Position numbers and translations under genes: made by a program | The notes under the pieces: model-generated | The model's input: the letters and a program-made list of their open reading frames with translations, nothing else | Database searches by the model: none | Told to the model about the DNA's origin: nothing | In this document: positions 4,208 through 22,280 of the stretch, piece after piece | Numbering within the stretch: position 1 is the first letter of the stretch | Layout of the letters: each line of letters starts with the position of its first letter | NCBI GenBank assembly: GCA_018817405.1 | Contig: JAHITZ010000041.1 | Span: 1-47,541 of the forward strand | Length of the DNA stretch: 47,541 nt | Direction: 5' to 3' | From: Nanobdellota archaeon | GTDB lineage: Archaea > Nanobdellota > Nanobdellia > Pacearchaeales > GW2011-AR1

Positions 4208-5734
4208 TCACTCCCCAATGCCATACTTGCTCAAAACCCCAACCGGATTTTTATGATACTCGTTTATTATCCATCCGACCTCGTCAAAGCCAAAGACTCT
4301 TTTTTTGTACAGCCCATAAAGGAGTTTTGCCCTTGTCAGAAGGTCTTGATATAATTTTTCAACAGGTATTCCAGTTCTGGTAGAAATTTTTTCAAGCGCC
4401 TTGCTATGTTTTTTTGAATAAAACAAATCTTTTTTAGGGTCCCATCTAAACGGCGTGTTAACCAAAGCAGTGCCTTCTTTATCAACATTTACCACCTCGA
4501 CAATTTCTCTTACTTTTCTGGTTTCTTGTTTTCCTACTGATGCATGCGTCATGATTGCAACACAATCCAAAGAATTAACCAGTGTTGGAGATAAATTAAT
4601 TGGAGGAGTCTGAAGTCTTCTGATTAAAGTGTCTATAGAATCAGAGTGCATAGTGCTGATAGAAGCATGCCCAGATGCCATTCCCTGAAACAAAACAAAA
4701 GCCTCTTTCCCCCTAACCTCTCCAACAATTAGATAATCAGGATTTTGCCTGAAAGAACTTTTTAAGATTTCAAACAAATCTATTTCTCCGATTTTCCCCA
4801 CACCTATTGAAGTTCTTGCAACAGAAGGAAGCCAGTTTTCTCTTGGCAGATTTATCTCTCGAGTATCTTCAATACTTACAACTCTCGCCTCCGGCGGAAT
4901 GAAAAATGCAAGAGCATTAAGCAAAGTAGTTTTACCAGAAGCAGTACCTCCTGTAACTAAAATATTTGCTTTGTGTTCTAACAGCACCCAAAAATAAGCA
5001 AGCATCTCAGGGCTTAAAGTGTTCATAGAAATTAGCTGTGTAGGTGTCCAGGGAATTTTAGTAAACTTTCTTATAGTAAATGTAGGCCCGCGGGAAGAGA
5101 CATCTTTTGTATATGTTGCATTAACTCTAGAGCCGTCAGGCAAAGTACCGTCAAGCAAGGGCTGTGCATAAGAAACATATCTCCCGGTGCGTTGCGCAAG
5201 TTTTTCTATAAAACTGGCAAGATTATCAAAATCATGGTAGGCAATATTGGTTCTTAAATTCCTGTAAATTCTGTGAACTACAAACAAAGGAGTATCAACC
5301 CCATTGCACTCTATGTCTTCTATAAAATAATCTCTCAACAGCGGATCAATCTCATTCAACCCGATAAAATCTCTAAAAAAATAATAAAACATTCTATCAT
5401 AACTTTCTGAAGAAATTTTAATGTTCAGTTCATCAATAAGTAAACGGGCTGTCTTGTCTATATAATTGGTCGTAGCTTCAAGTGTTTTTTCAACAGCCAC
5501 GTTGACATTAATCAACTCAAGCATTGCATTTTCAATTTTTTCAAGCACCTCTACTTCATAATCAGTCAAAATAGGTTCTTCTAATTCATACACCAGCTCG
5601 TTTAATTTCGCATTCCAATAAATATGGGCTGAAGCATAAGGTGAGATAAGCATGTACCTCACATCAATCCTCTTTTTATCCTCATATCTTGGAAGCGGCG
5701 GAACTGTTGGATTTAAATTAAGCTTTCCAATCAT
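4208..5734 (-). CDS. Secretion/pilus assembly ATPase (GspE/PilB/ArlI-type)
   Basis: 508 residues, a normal length for archaeal type II/IV secretion ATPases. An N-terminal domain (1-250) precedes the RecA-like core: Walker A TGGTASGKTT (about 261-270), the Asp box SIEDTREI, Walker B LIVGEVRGKE and the His box GHASISTMHSDS. ATP hydrolysis by the hexamer drives extraction and assembly of pilins at the T2SSF platform. The gene has its own TTTAAATA box about 26 nt upstream of the ATG, so it seems to be transcribed separately from the pilin genes upstream. The 163-nt spacer after it contains the promoter for the rest of the locus. Confidence 0.93.
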   Translation of the reverse strand: MIGKLNLNPTVPPLPRYEDKKRIDVRYMLISPYASAHIYWNAKLNELVYELEEPILTDYEVEVLEKIENAMLELINVNVAVEKTLEATTNYIDKTARLLIDELNIKISSESYDRMFYYFFRDFIGLNEIDPLLRDYFIEDIECNGVDTPLFVVHRIYRNLRTNIAYHDFDNLASFIEKLAQRTGRYVSYAQPLLDGTLPDGSRVNATYTKDVSSRGPTFTIRKFTKIPWTPTQLISMNTLSPEMLAYFWVLLEHKANILVTGGTASGKTTLLNALAFFIPPEARVVSIEDTREINLPRENWLPSVARTSIGVGKIGEIDLFEILKSSFRQNPDYLIVGEVRGKEAFVLFQGMASGHASISTMHSDSIDTLIRRLQTPPINLSPTLVNSLDCVAIMTHASVGKQETRKVREIVEVVNVDKEGTALVNTPFRWDPKKDLFYSKKHSKALEKISTRTGIPVEKLYQDLLTRAKLLYGLYKKRVFGFDEVGWIINEYHKNPVGVLSKYGIGE

Positions 5735-13151: not shown

Positions 13152-14915
13152 CTTCTTCTCAATCCCAGAAACCCTTGCCTTCAGCGGACTTTCCTTTGAT
13201 TTTCCAGTCTTTCTGTATTTAACAAATAAAATAATTATAACAAGAACAACAATCCCCCCAAGTAAATAACCAATCCAGGACTTGCTTCCTCCTGAAGAGG
13301 CGCTTCCACATTCTCCTGTGCAGCACAAACCATCAATCGCAGCAACTTTTGTTGTAGAGCAAACATCATCAGGACTACAGAATTTCCCCCCAGACAATTC
13401 AGAACAATAATAAGAAGGTCCTGAAACAGTGCTGTCCTTTGAATACTCTCTCAAAACTTGTCCTGCATCACTTGTAAGGTTAACTGTAAAGACCAGATAC
13501 TCATAAACATCTCCAGAATAAGCAACAACAACTCCCCTAACCCTGTTTCGCGGAGATTCTTTCAACGCCAAATTGAAATGAGCAGTTTCATTCACACCAA
13601 TAGAAATATTCTCCTCAGGAGAAATTATAAATCTATTTCTGTCGTAATCAAAGCGTAAGTTTTCTATCTCATTTTCTCCCTGATTTACAATTCCAAAAGA
13701 ATAAGAAAGAATTTCATCTGAAACCAAAACAGTGTCACGAATCACCCCAGGATTAATCATAAATCTCGGAGGCGCAAATGTTATTTCCAAAACACACTGC
13801 CCAATATCATAACTCAAACAATCTTTCGAACAACCCAAATCACCCCCAACATATCCAAGCGAACTGCAATTTTTTCCTTCTAAATCCTCACCATCGCAAG
13901 TTTCATTTCCTTCACTAATATTATCTCCACATTTTTGTTTAGGCTCTGGAAATTTATTACAAATCTCGTTATACCAATATCCCTCTGCATCTAAACAAGT
14001 TCCTGGTGTAAGACAAAGCCCAACATGTTCTGAATCACATTCTGCACCCTCTTCATAAAGATTACAAGTTTTATTATACCAATAACCACCCACATTGGTG
14101 CAATTATATTCTGTCAAACACAGCTCCAATTGTTCAGACCCACATACTTGTTCTGGTTCAGGTTCTTCAGGCAATTCACAACCATCAACATCAAAACTTA
14201 AACAACCCTCTGCACATGACAATGTTCCCCCAGCATACCCTTTAGAGATACAACTCTCTCCTCCTAAATCATCTTCATCACATACCTCACTGCCATCAAC
14301 CTGCCCATCACCACAAACATATTCTTCACCAAGTATGTAAGCAGGCACAGAATACCTTCCAACAGAAATCCTCGCAGAATAAACCCCAATCAAATCCCCA
14401 ATTGGAAAATCGATATGGTTTGTTCCAGGAACTAAATTAATCTCTCTCACCTCGGGAAAATCAATTTCTATTGTTTTGCTTGATTCATATAATGTAGCAG
14501 CTATTTCAAAATCATCACTAGCAAACACAAACCCCGGATTGATTGAATAATCTACTATCTCGCCCGCAACTATAAACTCTTTTTCATAATCAACAACATC
14601 AGGCACACCGCCAACAAAAGCGATAATATCTCTTACCTTCAAAGTATAATTCCCTGTGTTTTGAGGAGATATCAACCAAATATAATACCCTTGACCCAAT
14701 TTCCTAATATCATATTCAACAGCCACATCAATATATCCATCCCTAATAACACTAACTTGCTCCCTGGCAATCGGCGCCAAAATGCCTCCAGAAAACTCGC
14801 CAATCATTGTTTCCTTAGGAGCATAACTATCTCTTAAATCCGAGGACACAGCATAAATTCCTTGAACTAACATAACTAACACAACAAGCCCAGCAAAAAA
14901 CACCAATTTTTTCAT
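13146..14915 (-). CDS. Cys-rich surface protein A, C-terminal membrane anchor
   Basis: 589 residues: signal peptide (1-22), a beta-rich N-terminal domain (about 23-195), then Cys-rich modules: CGDGQVDGSEVCDEDDLGGE, two LCLT...GGYWYNKTCN-type modules, and another CGDxxSEGNETCDGEDLEGKN module. These are followed by a beta-sandwich (about 380-485), a Cys-rich CSELSGGKFCSPDDVCS...CCTGEC segment and one membrane helix near the C-terminus with a short basic tail. The CGDG...CDGxxLxG modules resemble Myxococcus-type Cys-rich repeats. It shares three module types with the gene upstream and is probably a cell-surface structural or adhesion protein. Transcribed in tandem with that gene (75-nt gap). Confidence 0.82.
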   Translation of the reverse strand: MKKLVFFAGLVVLVMLVQGIYAVSSDLRDSYAPKETMIGEFSGGILAPIAREQVSVIRDGYIDVAVEYDIRKLGQGYYIWLISPQNTGNYTLKVRDIIAFVGGVPDVVDYEKEFIVAGEIVDYSINPGFVFASDDFEIAATLYESSKTIEIDFPEVREINLVPGTNHIDFPIGDLIGVYSARISVGRYSVPAYILGEEYVCGDGQVDGSEVCDEDDLGGESCISKGYAGGTLSCAEGCLSFDVDGCELPEEPEPEQVCGSEQLELCLTEYNCTNVGGYWYNKTCNLYEEGAECDSEHVGLCLTPGTCLDAEGYWYNEICNKFPEPKQKCGDNISEGNETCDGEDLEGKNCSSLGYVGGDLGCSKDCLSYDIGQCVLEITFAPPRFMINPGVIRDTVLVSDEILSYSFGIVNQGENEIENLRFDYDRNRFIISPEENISIGVNETAHFNLALKESPRNRVRGVVVAYSGDVYEYLVFTVNLTSDAGQVLREYSKDSTVSGPSYYCSELSGGKFCSPDDVCSTTKVAAIDGLCCTGECGSASSGGSKSWIGYLLGGIVVLVIIILFVKYRKTGKSKESPLKARVSGIEKKL

Positions 14916-17431: not shown

Positions 17432-19009
17432 TCACTTTCTATCTCTTATCTTTCTCATCACATCCACCAGTGGATTCTTCGTCTTCGGCTTTTCTTTCAG
17501 TATTCCAATATCACGATAAAAAGCATCATTGGAATAATTCGGCGGCAAAATCTTTTTTTGTTGTTTCAAATGCCAATCAACCTGGCTTCTAATGTAACCT
17601 TCTTTCAAAGGCGGCTCATTGCGCCCATTCCATTCTCTTGTTTTCTTATTAATTTCCTCTGCACCATAACCAATCGACTTAAAAAAAGTCAGCAAAACAA
17701 ACAACCCTCTCTTTCGCCCATCTTCCAAACCTTTCAATAATTTCTTTATTGCCGGAGGAAAGTCTCTCTCATCAACATTTGAATAATCAAAATCTTTTCC
17801 TTCAAATTTCTTTCCCTCATATTTTTTTTCATAAACTTCCTGCTCCTCACTGTCCCTGGCTCTTTTCCATAACAAAGCATCTACCAACAATCTGGTCGCT
17901 TCTCCTTTTTTATTTTCAGGCATAAACTCTCTGATTTTAACTTTCATTGGATTTGCATCTTTTGGAGAAAAATTCTCAATTTCACTCTTTGAGATAACAA
18001 CACTTGCTAAAGCTGTTTTTTCATGCAGCGAATAAGGCATCCTAAATAAATGCCTTGGCGCAACCAAAACTAAATCCAGGCTTGCCATTTTATTTCCAGA
18101 CAAGCCTTCTTCAAAATCTTCAGCATCTTGTTTTTTCTCTGCATAAACAATCTTTCTCCCGCTTTCTTCCCCTGAAAATTTATCCCATGAACTCTTTTTA
18201 CAAAACTCACAATGAAAATAATCTTTCTCATCCACTACTTTTAAAATCCCTGCACAACCCTCATTTAAACATTTCAGCCTTTTCTTTGTGATTTTAACAT
18301 TTTTCCTTTCAATTGTTGTTCCACAAAGAGGACATTTAAATTTCACAATTTTTCCTTTCTTTCCAGGACGACTGCACTCCGGGCAGACAGCTTCTTTCAA
18401 ATCCTCTTTCTTTATTTTCGTCCTTGTTTCAAGAGCAGCAAAATTAATATCCATCTTTCCAATCTCTCGGTTATACTCTGGACGAATTTTATTTGTGATA
18501 AATTCGCAAATCGCCCTAGGCCATTCTGGAAAACTCACACTCTTTTTCTCCTCGTTAAATTCTTCTGGAAACGCTCCATTCCCTACAATAATATGAAATC
18601 CCTTGCTTCCTGAAAATTTCACACCATACTTCTTGATTCCATACTCTTCCAAAGTCTTAATTATTAAAAGAGATGCAATCTTAGAACAATCTAAAAACGG
18701 CGAATCAATATCAATTAATAAGTCCCACCCTTTTCTCAAGGAATCCATTTCTTTACTTGTTATCTCACTGCTAAGCCCAAGGGGGTCGTGCCAAATCTCC
18801 TCAGAAACATGAAACGACGTCGCTCCTTTTCTCACAGCCCCCATTACATCGCTTGAATATTGCAAAATGTCCGGCCGTTTTCCAAAACCCTCAAAATACC
18901 TCGGAACAACCTCTCTTTCAGAAGCAAACTTCAACAGCACATCCTGCACAGCCTTGTTCGAGTAATACAACTGCGTTATCTGCCTTATTCTCTTTTCTTT
19001 TGAATCCAT
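17432..19009 (-). CDS. priS: Single-chain archaeal primase (PriS domain fused to PriL C-domain)
   Basis: 525 residues from the chosen start. The PriS catalytic part has LLIDIDSP (acidic pair), KFSGSKGFHI and SLDLVLVAPRHLFRMPYSLHEKT, interrupted by a metal-binding insert with four Cys pairs (CPEC, CPLC, CLNEGC, CEFC). The last 130 residues match the PriL C-terminal domain (FPPAIKKLLKGLEDGRKRGLFV, then WNGRNEPPLKEGYIRSQVDWH and KILPPN). The normal Fe-S Cys ligands are absent; for example PPA replaces PPC, and the last 220 residues contain no Cys. Fused primases are known in Nanoarchaeum. It makes RNA primers for replication. The ATG at 19009 has a TATA box about 25 nt upstream; a longer in-frame start at 19099 would run through the promoter. 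Confidence 0.88.
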   Translation of the reverse strand: MDSKEKRIRQITQLYYSNKAVQDVLLKFASEREVVPRYFEGFGKRPDILQYSSDVMGAVRKGATSFHVSEEIWHDPLGLSSEITSKEMDSLRKGWDLLIDIDSPFLDCSKIASLLIIKTLEEYGIKKYGVKFSGSKGFHIIVGNGAFPEEFNEEKKSVSFPEWPRAICEFITNKIRPEYNREIGKMDINFAALETRTKIKKEDLKEAVCPECSRPGKKGKIVKFKCPLCGTTIERKNVKITKKRLKCLNEGCAGILKVVDEKDYFHCEFCKKSSWDKFSGEESGRKIVYAEKKQDAEDFEEGLSGNKMASLDLVLVAPRHLFRMPYSLHEKTALASVVISKSEIENFSPKDANPMKVKIREFMPENKKGEATRLLVDALLWKRARDSEEQEVYEKKYEGKKFEGKDFDYSNVDERDFPPAIKKLLKGLEDGRKRGLFVLLTFFKSIGYGAEEINKKTREWNGRNEPPLKEGYIRSQVDWHLKQQKKILPPNYSNDAFYRDIGILKEKPKTKNPLVDVMRKIRDRK

Positions 19010-19040
19010 AATCTTTGAAGTAAACAGTATTTTATATTGT

Positions 19041-19060
19041 TTGTTGTTTTCCCACAACAA
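19041..19060. promoter_or_regulatory. Palindromic element, copy 1 (primase and protease promoters)
   Basis: TTGTTGTTTTCCCACAACAA, with 6-bp inverted arms TTGTTG/CAACAA around an asymmetric TTTTCCCA core. It lies between two back-to-back TATA boxes, one for the primase gene (centre about 19034, minus strand) and one for the metalloprotease gene (centre about 19066). An identical 20-base copy precedes the PCNA gene. Likely operator or activator site. Confidence 0.6.
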
Positions 19061-19090
19061 GTTTAAATAAAAAGGAGTTGTTAACCAAAT

Positions 19091-20917
19091 ATGATTCAAA
19101 AGAAAACAATTCTATTCGTAATTGTTTTGTTTATCATTATTGCCATTTTTATAGCCCTGCAAAAAGATGTTTTATTCAGCCCACTAAATCTTAAAAAAAT
19201 CTCAAAACCTCCCTCGCTTGAGAGTTATCAAAAATTTTGTAGAAATCCTCTTCCAATCTACTCAACAACCATTCCAGATCCATCTGGAGATGCACCAGCC
19301 CACATAGATATCCTTTCCACAGAAATAGGAAGCATTAACAACAAAATACAATTCGTAATGGAATTAGAAGAAGAACCAATTGGAGCAGACGACACAATTT
19401 ACATTTGGTTCATAGATACAGACTTCAACGCCCAAACTGGACAACAGCACGGACAAATCGGAAGTGAATACAATCTAAGGATATACTATTACAACGGACA
19501 GTGGGATGCAGCGATAGACGACATTAACAACCAAGAATCCTGGCCAGCTCCATTTTTCATAGATAATAAAAGATTAATCCTCTCTGCGCCAAGAAATAAG
19601 ATAGGAGAATCAGAAGGTTTTGATTTTTATTTCGAAAGCAACTATCAAAATCAACAGTTCGATGATGGGAGTTACGGGACATACGATTTTATAGAAAATA
19701 ATAATTGGGATTTTGTTTTTAACATAGGAAACGAGGTATTTCCTGAGAGATTACAGAAAAAATCAATATATATTCCTAAACAAGATTCAGTTCCAATATC
19801 TCTCGTTGCAAAAAGAAATGGCCTTGAAGAAGAAGTAGATAGGAGATTAATAGAATTTTTCCCAGAATCATCAAATATAATAGACATAATAAATTTTGAA
19901 ATAACAGACATATCAACAGAATATTCTGATTTACTAGGTCATGAAGAATTTAACTTGGGAGCCTATCTTCGAGATTGTGATGTTATAACAAATGAAAAAA
20001 TAAACATCTTTATAGGAGATTTATATCAAGGAGACAACATTGCTTTTATAATTCCAGGAAAATTCAAGTGTCCAGAGAGTTCTTCTGATTGTGGAGCCCA
20101 AGAATGGCAGCACTCTTTTGACGAAATCCTAACAAGCTTCAACACAATCTACGTCACAGACCTAAATTACAATCTACAGTTACACCTCACAGGAATCTCT
20201 CCTATTGAAGGTCAGCCTTTGTTGTACGAATTTAATTATGATTTATGCGGCGGAGCTGGAGAACTAATCGGGCTGGGATGGGGCTGTATAAATTACAATG
20301 ATATGCCCGATTGGTTTGTCCTTTATCACGAAACAGGGCATATTTTTCAAAAGCACATTTTTGACGATCCCCATTTCATCGGAATGCAAGATTTAATAAT
20401 TGAAGATGATAGTTTATTCAGCGAAGGTATGGCAACGCTTGGGGAAATGTACACAATTAATACACTAACCTCTGGAACAGTTATTTATGATATTGATGAA
20501 CCAGAACTAAGTTCTATCATTGATGAGATAAATATTCAGTACGGTTTTTTAAATTCAACCGACTGTCAAGGCCATTCAAATGGTGATAACTGTTTCACAT
20601 CTCTCTGGGCTTACGAAAATGTATTTGGCAGCAACATTTCACTAATAGACCCAAATATTCTTGACGGAATTTTTTTGCAGTTAGCAGAGGAATTCAGCTG
20701 GGAGATTTATCCAAGATTTTACAAAGTGTTTTTGCCAGAGTTCCAATCAGACTATGCGCCTGTGGAAATTGGTCAAGGAGAAACATTTTTCATAGCAGCG
20801 TTGTCTGCAGCAGCAGGTCAAGATTTAAGACCGCAATTCCGCGAATGGAACTTTCCAATCAACGAAGACTATTTTGATCAAATTTATCCTGTCTTGTTAA
20901 ATATCATAAACAGTTAA
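19091..20917 (+). CDS. Membrane-anchored gluzincin-like metalloprotease
   Basis: 608 residues. N-terminal membrane anchor (about 6-24). A beta-sandwich of about 150 residues with DPSGDAPAHIDILS and WFIDTDFNAQTGQ resembles CBM9/DOMON-like binding domains. The C-terminal half has the zinc motif HETGH (413-417) and a downstream SEGMATLGE (E445) that could be the third ligand, as in gluzincins such as the M60 group. Paired Cys in the middle are compatible with an external location. It may cut surface or host glycoproteins (inference). The start is supported by a TTTAAATAA box 25 nt upstream. It shares its promoter region with the primase gene. Confidence 0.75.
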   Translation: MIQKKTILFVIVLFIIIAIFIALQKDVLFSPLNLKKISKPPSLESYQKFCRNPLPIYSTTIPDPSGDAPAHIDILSTEIGSINNKIQFVMELEEEPIGADDTIYIWFIDTDFNAQTGQQHGQIGSEYNLRIYYYNGQWDAAIDDINNQESWPAPFFIDNKRLILSAPRNKIGESEGFDFYFESNYQNQQFDDGSYGTYDFIENNNWDFVFNIGNEVFPERLQKKSIYIPKQDSVPISLVAKRNGLEEEVDRRLIEFFPESSNIIDIINFEITDISTEYSDLLGHEEFNLGAYLRDCDVITNEKINIFIGDLYQGDNIAFIIPGKFKCPESSSDCGAQEWQHSFDEILTSFNTIYVTDLNYNLQLHLTGISPIEGQPLLYEFNYDLCGGAGELIGLGWGCINYNDMPDWFVLYHETGHIFQKHIFDDPHFIGMQDLIIEDDSLFSEGMATLGEMYTINTLTSGTVIYDIDEPELSSIIDEINIQYGFLNSTDCQGHSNGDNCFTSLWAYENVFGSNISLIDPNILDGIFLQLAEEFSWEIYPRFYKVFLPEFQSDYAPVEIGQGETFFIAALSAAAGQDLRPQFREWNFPINEDYFDQIYPVLLNIINS

Positions 20918-20924
20918 ACTAATC

Positions 20925-20944
20925 TTGTTGTTTTCCCACAACAA
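20925..20944. promoter_or_regulatory. Palindromic element, copy 2 (PCNA promoter)
   Basis: An exact repeat of the 20-base element found upstream of the primase gene. It ends a few bases before the CTTTTTAAC box (centre about 20953) of the PCNA gene, so in both replication genes the element sits just upstream of the TATA box. The orientation of the core differs between the two genes. Confidence 0.6.
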
Positions 20945-20978
20945 TAATCTTTTTAACCCTGCTTACTTACCCAAAACC

Positions 20979-21710
20979 ATGAAACTCACACTACAAAGCC
21001 CTAAAATATTTGCAGATTTAATAACAATTATCTCAGAGCTAGTTACAGAAGTAAGGATAAAGATAAACAAAGAAGGAATAAGCCTCACAGCAATAGACCC
21101 TGCAAATGTTGCAATGATTTATTTTAAGATTCCCTCAACTCTTTTCTCTGATTTTGAGCTTGACAAAGAAGAGGAGGAATTAGGTGTAAACTTAAACAGT
21201 CTAAAAGCGGTGTTAAGGCGGTGCAAGCCAGGGGCAGCTTTAACAATAGAAAAACAGGAAAACTTACTCCAACTTGGAATTAGAGACAGAGTAAAAAGAG
21301 ACTTCTCCCTTGCTTTGATAGATATTGATGTAGAGGAAAAGCCACTGCCAGAATGGGAATTCAACTCAGTCATTAAAATAAACTCAGACACATTTACAGA
21401 AGTAATTGAAGATTGCGCTGTTGTCTCAGACGCCTGCACCTTTATTGCCGAGCCCGATAAATTTATTGTCGAAGCCCACGGTTTGAACAGCGCAAAAGCA
21501 GAATTCTCAACAGATGAAGCAGAAATCCATTCTGGAAACAGCACAGCCCGTTTCTCTCTTGAGTATCTAAGCAAGTTCATCAAAGGAGCAAAAATCTCAA
21601 ACCAATCCACCCTTTCATTCAGCGATAATCATCCAATGAGGCTTGACTTCCACACCGGCGAAGTCGTCCTGAGCTTCGTCCTAGCACCACGAGTCGAACA
21701 GGATGATTAA
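20979..21710 (+). CDS. pcn: Sliding clamp, PCNA
   Basis: 243 residues, the usual length for archaeal PCNA. Hallmarks are an N-terminal strand (LTLQSPKIFADLITIISEL), SLTAIDPANVAMIYFKIP, VNLNSLKAVLRRCKPGAALTIEK, and the C-terminal MRLDFHTGEVVLSFVLAPRVE that forms the partner-binding pocket. The trimeric ring tethers polymerase, ligase and FEN1 to DNA. I use the ATG at 20979 because it fits the TATA spacing and the conserved start (MKLTLQ); an in-frame upstream ATG at 20925 would lie within the regulatory element. Confidence 0.95.
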   Translation: MKLTLQSPKIFADLITIISELVTEVRIKINKEGISLTAIDPANVAMIYFKIPSTLFSDFELDKEEEELGVNLNSLKAVLRRCKPGAALTIEKQENLLQLGIRDRVKRDFSLALIDIDVEEKPLPEWEFNSVIKINSDTFTEVIEDCAVVSDACTFIAEPDKFIVEAHGLNSAKAEFSTDEAEIHSGNSTARFSLEYLSKFIKGAKISNQSTLSFSDNHPMRLDFHTGEVVLSFVLAPRVEQDD

Positions 21711-21740: not shown

Positions 21741-22280
21741 ATGAAATTCAAATCAAATTCTAAATCTACAGATCCTGAAGAATTGACAAGAATTGAATCC
21801 ACTTGGAACAAAGAAGAAAATAAAATTCTAAAAACAATCAATCAGATAACCTCCCTAGATATTTCTACAAGAAGCATAACCTGTGTTATTGACTCCACCA
21901 CCACAAACGGATACTACGGGGAAAATAAAATTTTCTTAGGGATCAAAGGCGGAATTGACAAAGACAACCTTCTCATGGTAATCGCCCACGAACTATTTCA
22001 TATTTTCTATTGGAAGATGCTAAAAAAATTAAAAATAATAACTAAGAGCAATCTCGGCAAGGAAATGTTCTGGGAATGGGCTCTGGCAGAAGTTACAGTT
22101 TATCTATTGCAAAAAGAAAGAAGAATGAAATGTTTCTGGTCGACAGCACAAATCAAACTTTACCCAGAAATAACAAAGGTCTATCAGAAAGTGGCCCCTC
22201 TTTGGAAGAAGGAAGCTTTTCAGGATTACATCATCAAATCATACAGCATTTTAAAGGACGACATCGAACAGGAAGATTAA
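21741..22280 (+). CDS. Small zincin-like protein (HExxH)
   Basis: 179 residues with IAHELFHIFYW (H83, E84, H87) in a helix after a strand-rich N-terminus, followed by a helical part. It has no signal peptide, so it is probably cytoplasmic. A possible third ligand is the Glu in FWEWALAEVTVYLL (about 115-125). Family not recognised beyond the zincin motif. Its own TTTATAC box is about 25 nt upstream of the ATG. It follows PCNA but is not in one operon with it by spacing (30 nt with a promoter). Confidence 0.65.
   Translation: MKFKSNSKSTDPEELTRIESTWNKEENKILKTINQITSLDISTRSITCVIDSTTTNGYYGENKIFLGIKGGIDKDNLLMVIAHELFHIFYWKMLKKLKIITKSNLGKEMFWEWALAEVTVYLLQKERRMKCFWSTAQIKLYPEITKVYQKVAPLWKKEAFQDYIIKSYSILKDDIEQED

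Follow-up and report, generated by a model that had tools for sequence, protein, structure and literature searches.

We report here a locus in a Nanobdellota archaeon at which a protease gene has probably inserted into the divergent promoter once shared by the primase and sliding clamp (PCNA) genes, splitting it and duplicating its centre. The locus lies in contig JAHITZ010000041.1, within the window (the whole stretch of DNA analysed, 47,541 bp long). A 20-bp element, TTGTTGTTTTCCCACAACAA, is present there as two exact copies on the same strand, at 19041-19060 and 20925-20944. Judged by its sequence and setting, this element is probably the duplicated centre of the ancestral promoter, consisting of two back-to-back half-sites. 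The locus would thus illustrate a route by which an incoming gene can settle in an essential divergent promoter with neither side broken, the centre being duplicated and one half borrowed. Its features are as follows.

17432-19009, minus strand: primase, 525 aa, a probable fusion of a PriS-like part and a PriL-like C-terminus
19030-19037, minus strand: primase TATA box, ATATAAAA, at -28 to -21 from the ATG
19041-19060, no strand assigned: element copy 1, whose left arm covers -38 to -32 of primase (minus strand) and whose right arm covers -37 to -31 of the protease (plus strand)
19061-19068, plus strand: protease TATA box, GTTTAAAT, at exactly -30 to -23 from the ATG, forming the first bases of the inserted stretch
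19061-20924, plus strand: putative inserted stretch, 1864 bp between the element copies, missing in relatives
19091-20917, plus strand: candidate M60/enhancin-like metallopeptidase, 608 aa, with HETGH at residue 413 and a later E
20925-20944, no strand assigned: element copy 2, whose right arm covers -41 to -35 of PCNA (plus strand) and whose left arm faces the protease gene's 3′ end
20949-20956, plus strand: PCNA TATA box, CTTTTTAA, at exactly -30 to -23 from the ATG
20979-21710, plus strand: PCNA (sliding clamp), 243 aa, Pfam PCNA_N (E=1.1e-13) and PCNA_C (E=1.1e-11)

The sequence-only reading had described an identical 20-base element occurring twice, each copy adjoining the TATA box of a replication gene (primase on the minus strand, PCNA on the plus strand) and the first also facing the metalloprotease promoter. 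Both the repeat and these positions were confirmed, and the assembly (a 1.07-Mb, 66-contig draft, 82% complete, the one genome of the species in the analysis) holds two copies only. The arms, given there as TTGTTG/CAACAA around an 8-nt core, measure 7 bp (TTGTTGT/ACAACAA) around a 6-nt core (TTTCCC). The match between the copies ends sharply at 20 bp on either side. No third copy was found in the window with up to 3 mismatches, and dinucleotide shuffles gave an expectation of 0.02. The pattern TTGTTGTN6ACAACAA has two sites in the whole assembly, both at the primase/protease/PCNA locus. A genome scan, suggested earlier as a way of finding the palindrome at further replication genes, found none that carries it; with 2 mismatches allowed there were 24 matches against 19 for the reversed control, which is the background level. 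Neither the GTDB species genomes (257 Gb) nor IMG/VR contained the exact 20-mer, and a zero-mismatch scan of 92 relatives for the palindrome gave nothing above background, with no occurrence in the 9 congeners. In relatives, the generic core pattern AACAAWNCTTWAAAA occurred at only about twice the frequency of its reversed control.

Relatives carry an empty site. In all seven congeners that have both together, primase and PCNA are arranged head to head with a single intergenic spacer (84 to about 150 bp) between them, and most of the relatives examined at family and order level show the same arrangement. A PCNA gene was identified in 51 of the 55 relatives. Where both genes were present on the fetched loci (25 relatives), they were always divergent, separated by a spacer of 300 bp or less in 20 and by another gene in 5; the short divergent arrangement is additionally seen in congener G008. 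The flanks of the putative insertion were joined with one element copy (19010-19060 plus 20945-20978) and aligned to the congener spacers, for comparison with the left and right junctions. The joined sequence scored higher than either junction (left/right) in G002 (87 versus 64/74), G003 (86 versus 56/84), G006 (78 versus 63/66), G008 (84 versus 61/72), and G004 (62 versus 61/60), the sole exception being G005 (60 versus 52 on the left and 62 on the right). In congeners G001 (89% complete) and G007, the primase gene was found and a PCNA gene was not; the region upstream of the G001 primase retains the primase half, TTTTATATTGTTTGTTATTCCC. In five other genera (loci L024, L026, L027, L029, and L040), primase and PCNA are separated by a different gene, and no element repeats flank it. 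By eye, these intervening genes appear to encode a Nudix-like protein, YjbQ-like proteins (twice), a PHP-like phosphoesterase, and a membrane-anchored protein.

The primase matches Pfam DNA_primase_S above the cut-off (E=5.6e-6), and its C-terminus matches DNA_primase_lrg under it (E=2.8e-4, 20.7 bits, cut-off 22.4). The protein appears to be a PriS-PriL fusion in one chain, its central stretch resembling a zinc ribbon; against the PDB, only a weak zinc-ribbon match was obtained. Together with PCNA, RFC, MCM, TFB, and a genome of about 1 Mb, this probable fusion marks the source as an archaeon, putatively of the DPANN kind. A fused primase is known in Nanoarchaeum equitans (PMC2643942). As in the PCNA-PriS-Gins15 (PPsG) cluster of archaeal replication genes, PCNA neighbours a primase gene; here, in contrast, there is one probably fused primase, divergent from PCNA, with which it would once have shared an intergenic promoter (PMC2643942). 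The PPsG study counted gene neighbourhoods, not promoters (PMC2643942). Directly past PCNA, a 179-aa open reading frame (21741-22280) contains an HELFH motif and has a sub-threshold match to DUF2268, a predicted Zn protease family (E=0.001); it was not found on the fetched congener loci.

The protease gene sits between the element copies and occurs in no relative examined, which points to an insertion that would have duplicated 20 bp of the divergent promoter. No homologue was found in 55 relatives, 9 congeners among them, and a search of 377 class genomes plus a phylum sample returned one weak N-terminal match only (80 residues, 29%). Searches of GTDB contigs, IMG/VR, phages, and the PDB likewise yielded no homologue or donor. 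The family assignment is as a candidate, the match to Pfam PF13402 (M60) being below the cut-off (E=0.0016, 18.5 bits, cut-off 25.8) and spanning residues 527-586, outside HETGH. The M60/PF13402 motif is HEXXHX(8,28)E (PMC3267712), and the protease contains it, with the E 27 residues after HETGH. The insert holds this single long open reading frame; no integrase, transposase, or Cas1 gene was found on its 1864 bp. Its G+C content is 35%, compared with 36% for the window. As for terminal inverted repeats, the insert ends share, by eye, only 6 bp (GTTTAA) in inverted orientation. Compared with known transposons, an exact 20-bp duplication lacking terminal inverted repeats or a recombinase fits no class tested. 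A single insertion event of 1864 bp on the branch of this species would be the parsimonious reading of these alignments. The true duplication may be shorter than 20 bp, since up to a few of these bases might come from the donor and match by chance. The repeats might also permit loss of the insert through recombination.

For primase, PCNA, and the protease alike, a 7-bp arm of the element directly precedes the TATA box and occupies the position of the TFB-recognition element (BRE), and the palindrome may therefore be read as two promoter half-sites placed back to back. Read toward each gene and counted from the ATG, ACAACAA is at -38 to -32 for primase, -37 to -31 for the protease, and -41 to -35 for PCNA, about 3 bp farther upstream in the last than in the other two. 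In Pyrococcus furiosus, the BRE is at -36 to -32 and the TATA box at -30 to -23 from the transcript start, and the BRE consensus is RRAAA (PMC6640164). ACAACAA occupies the BRE position but resembles RRAAA only loosely. Measured against a TATA box 23 to 30 bp upstream, the boxes of PCNA and the protease fall at -30 to -23 and that of primase at -28 to -21, as counted from the ATG assuming leaderless starts. The fit to the P. furiosus spacing is close if the genes are leaderless, as is suggested by the genome-wide TATA peak at -30 to -26 from the ATG. The likeness to the archaeal BRE/TATA core promoter thus extends to the positions of half-site and TATA box and to the TATA sequences; the order here is TATA-BRE-BRE-TATA, whereas the bidirectional promoters of P. 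furiosus are BRE-TATA-BRE, and ACAACAA stands in place of RRAAA (PMC6640164). Recognition of the half-site by TFB, or by an activator bound there, and the activity of the promoters are presumed from these positions.

On this account, two core promoters would have stood back to back in the ancestor, with an ACAACAA half-site occupying the BRE position next to the TATA box of each, and the half-sites, facing one another, would have had the appearance of an inverted repeat. Most likely, TFB would bind each half-site and TBP each TATA box, giving one pre-initiation complex per side. In the lineage of this species, a 1.86-kb stretch carrying the metalloprotease gene and its own TATA box would then have entered the promoter, with duplication of the central 20 bp. 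The left copy would have stayed with primase and the right copy with PCNA, while the protease would borrow, for its own BRE position, the right arm of primase's copy. There would be two copies of the element, then, because one ancestral divergent promoter was split with a 20-bp duplication.

A further reading can stand alongside the split promoter: that primase, PCNA, RfcS, RfcL, and MCM form a genus-level class of replication promoters, jointly expressed through a dedicated activator or a sequence-selective TFB. We regard it as possible but tentative. The half-site was surveyed in 841 kb of the genome (79% of the assembly), which contained 404 intergenic gene starts with a TATA box. Before any position filter, CAACAAN{0,8}TTWAA is barely enriched across the whole genome (87 matches versus 63 reversed); enrichment of CAACAA emerges solely at -42 to -36 from gene starts. 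CAACAA is present at -52 to -26 in 23 of the 404 starts, with a peak at -42 to -36. It precedes the TATA box in 5/7 replication genes (MCM, RfcS, RfcL, primase, and PCNA), the seven being those identifiable with a TATA promoter in the sampled genome, compared with 18/397 other genes (Fisher p=7e-6), and in 3/5 when primase and PCNA are left out (p=0.0012); these values are optimistic because the RFC genes were noticed via the motif. RfcS and RfcL were called by Pfam, and MCM by the motif GDPGVAK; homologues of the MCM gene occur in 51 relatives. Among congeners, 17/31 replication promoters contain AACAA, versus 6/33 control promoters from the same loci (p=0.002), and 10/31 versus 1/33 contain ACAACAA (p=0.002), values that are again optimistic since orthologues are not independent. 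Several results weigh against such a class. In the wider family and order, the difference is not significant (AACAA at 10/59 replication versus 10/95 control promoters). Within the genome itself, RadA has only a near match to the half-site and SMC none, non-replication genes carry it too, as do a ScpB gene and an XerA-like integrase gene, and a motif search of the sampled 79% turned up one TFB gene (L164:13164-14117). The half-site is thus a plausible candidate for a replication promoter element shared by these genes and confined to the genus. The fuller proposal, that the genes for clamp, clamp loader, helicase, and primase make up a genus-wide class with (A)CAACAA at the BRE position, read through TFB or an activator, which an orphan protease joined by inserting, is more speculative, and we hold it to be doubtful. 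The co-ordination of replication-gene expression in archaea has been little studied beyond a few model groups, and a literature search found no paper on co-expression of replication genes in small-genome uncultivated archaea. A BRE-position half-site common to primase, PCNA, RFC, and MCM, if true, could be tested with purified TBP and TFB.

As a separate observation, matches to MCM are split near residues 393-414 within reading frames of 1032-1675 aa in eight genomes (G002:C104, G014:C19, G017:C1, G028:C80, G029:C14, G030:C65, G031:C14, and G058:C62), suggesting inteins at a common site.

The palindrome might instead be the operator of a dimeric regulator that co-controls primase, PCNA, and the protease, the duplication being kept since both replication genes need an operator. 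Such an operator would account for the perfect 7-bp arms in both copies and the lack of divergence between them. G002 also has perfect 7-bp arms, and several congeners share a pyrimidine-rich core that ends in CC or CCC. We nonetheless consider it unlikely. The palindrome is absent from the rest of the genome and, at zero mismatches, from the 9 congeners, its arms coincide with the BRE position, and lone half-sites recur at other promoters. G002 is the only congener with two perfect arms, and there the spacing is 9 bp rather than 6; in G003, G004, G006, and G008, both halves are present with imperfect arms. This variation in arm spacing argues against a rigid dimer operator, and the persistence of both halves after loss of symmetry fits two separately constrained promoters. 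The shared replication-linked regulator put forward in the sequence-only reading accordingly fails as an operator placed at two promoters and survives only as the half-site (A)CAACAA common to MCM, RfcS, RfcL, primase, and PCNA. The comparison with promoters of relatives, also proposed there, divides in the same way: the half-site is enriched in congeners, but the whole palindrome is absent and the arm spacing varies.

Site-specific integration of a cargo gene, leaving attachment-like repeats at a recombination or integrase site, would also place exact direct repeats around a lineage-specific gene. The repeat length is within the range of casposon target duplications (1 to 27 nt, median 15) (PMC4046053), and in this respect the locus resembles casposons and other target-duplicating elements. 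Casposons, however, have terminal inverted repeats of 25 to 602 nt (PMC4046053), against the 6-bp GTTTAA here, and the insert differs from them in having neither Cas1 nor PolB and in carrying a single cargo gene. With no integrase or transposase on the insert, one long open reading frame, no further copies of the site, and no such repeats around the intervening genes of other genera, this explanation appears improbable.

It is very hard to credit that the locus is an assembly artefact in which two contigs were misjoined via a short repeat, although the draft has 66 contigs and the protease has no homologue in relatives. An overlap of 20 bp is shorter than usual assembly k-mers, the G+C contents of insert and window are nearly alike, and the protease TATA box is correctly spaced against copy 1. 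Least credible of all is that the repeats form RNA hairpins serving as terminators or mRNA elements: the 7-bp stem (-5.4 to -7.0 kcal/mol, z -2.3 to -3.8) and the position of copy 2, 8 bp past the protease stop codon, speak for it, but the stem is weak and A/U-rich, the position is tied to the TATA box in all three promoters, and copy 1, being upstream of the TATA box of each flanking gene, should not be transcribed from either promoter.

A survey of direct repeats in 298 kb of the same genome found a few long exact ones, none of which is a palindrome at a divergent promoter. Two direct repeats were noted. Direct repeats of about 52 bp with one mismatch, 1089 bp apart (L072:4486-4537 and 5575-5626; G000:C7:24486, 25575), enclose a stretch with small open reading frames only (72-109 aa), possibly a small insertion or a decayed element. 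An exact 41-bp direct repeat with copies 4.1 kb apart (L069:10272-10312 and 14369-14409) flanks the RfcL and RfcS genes.
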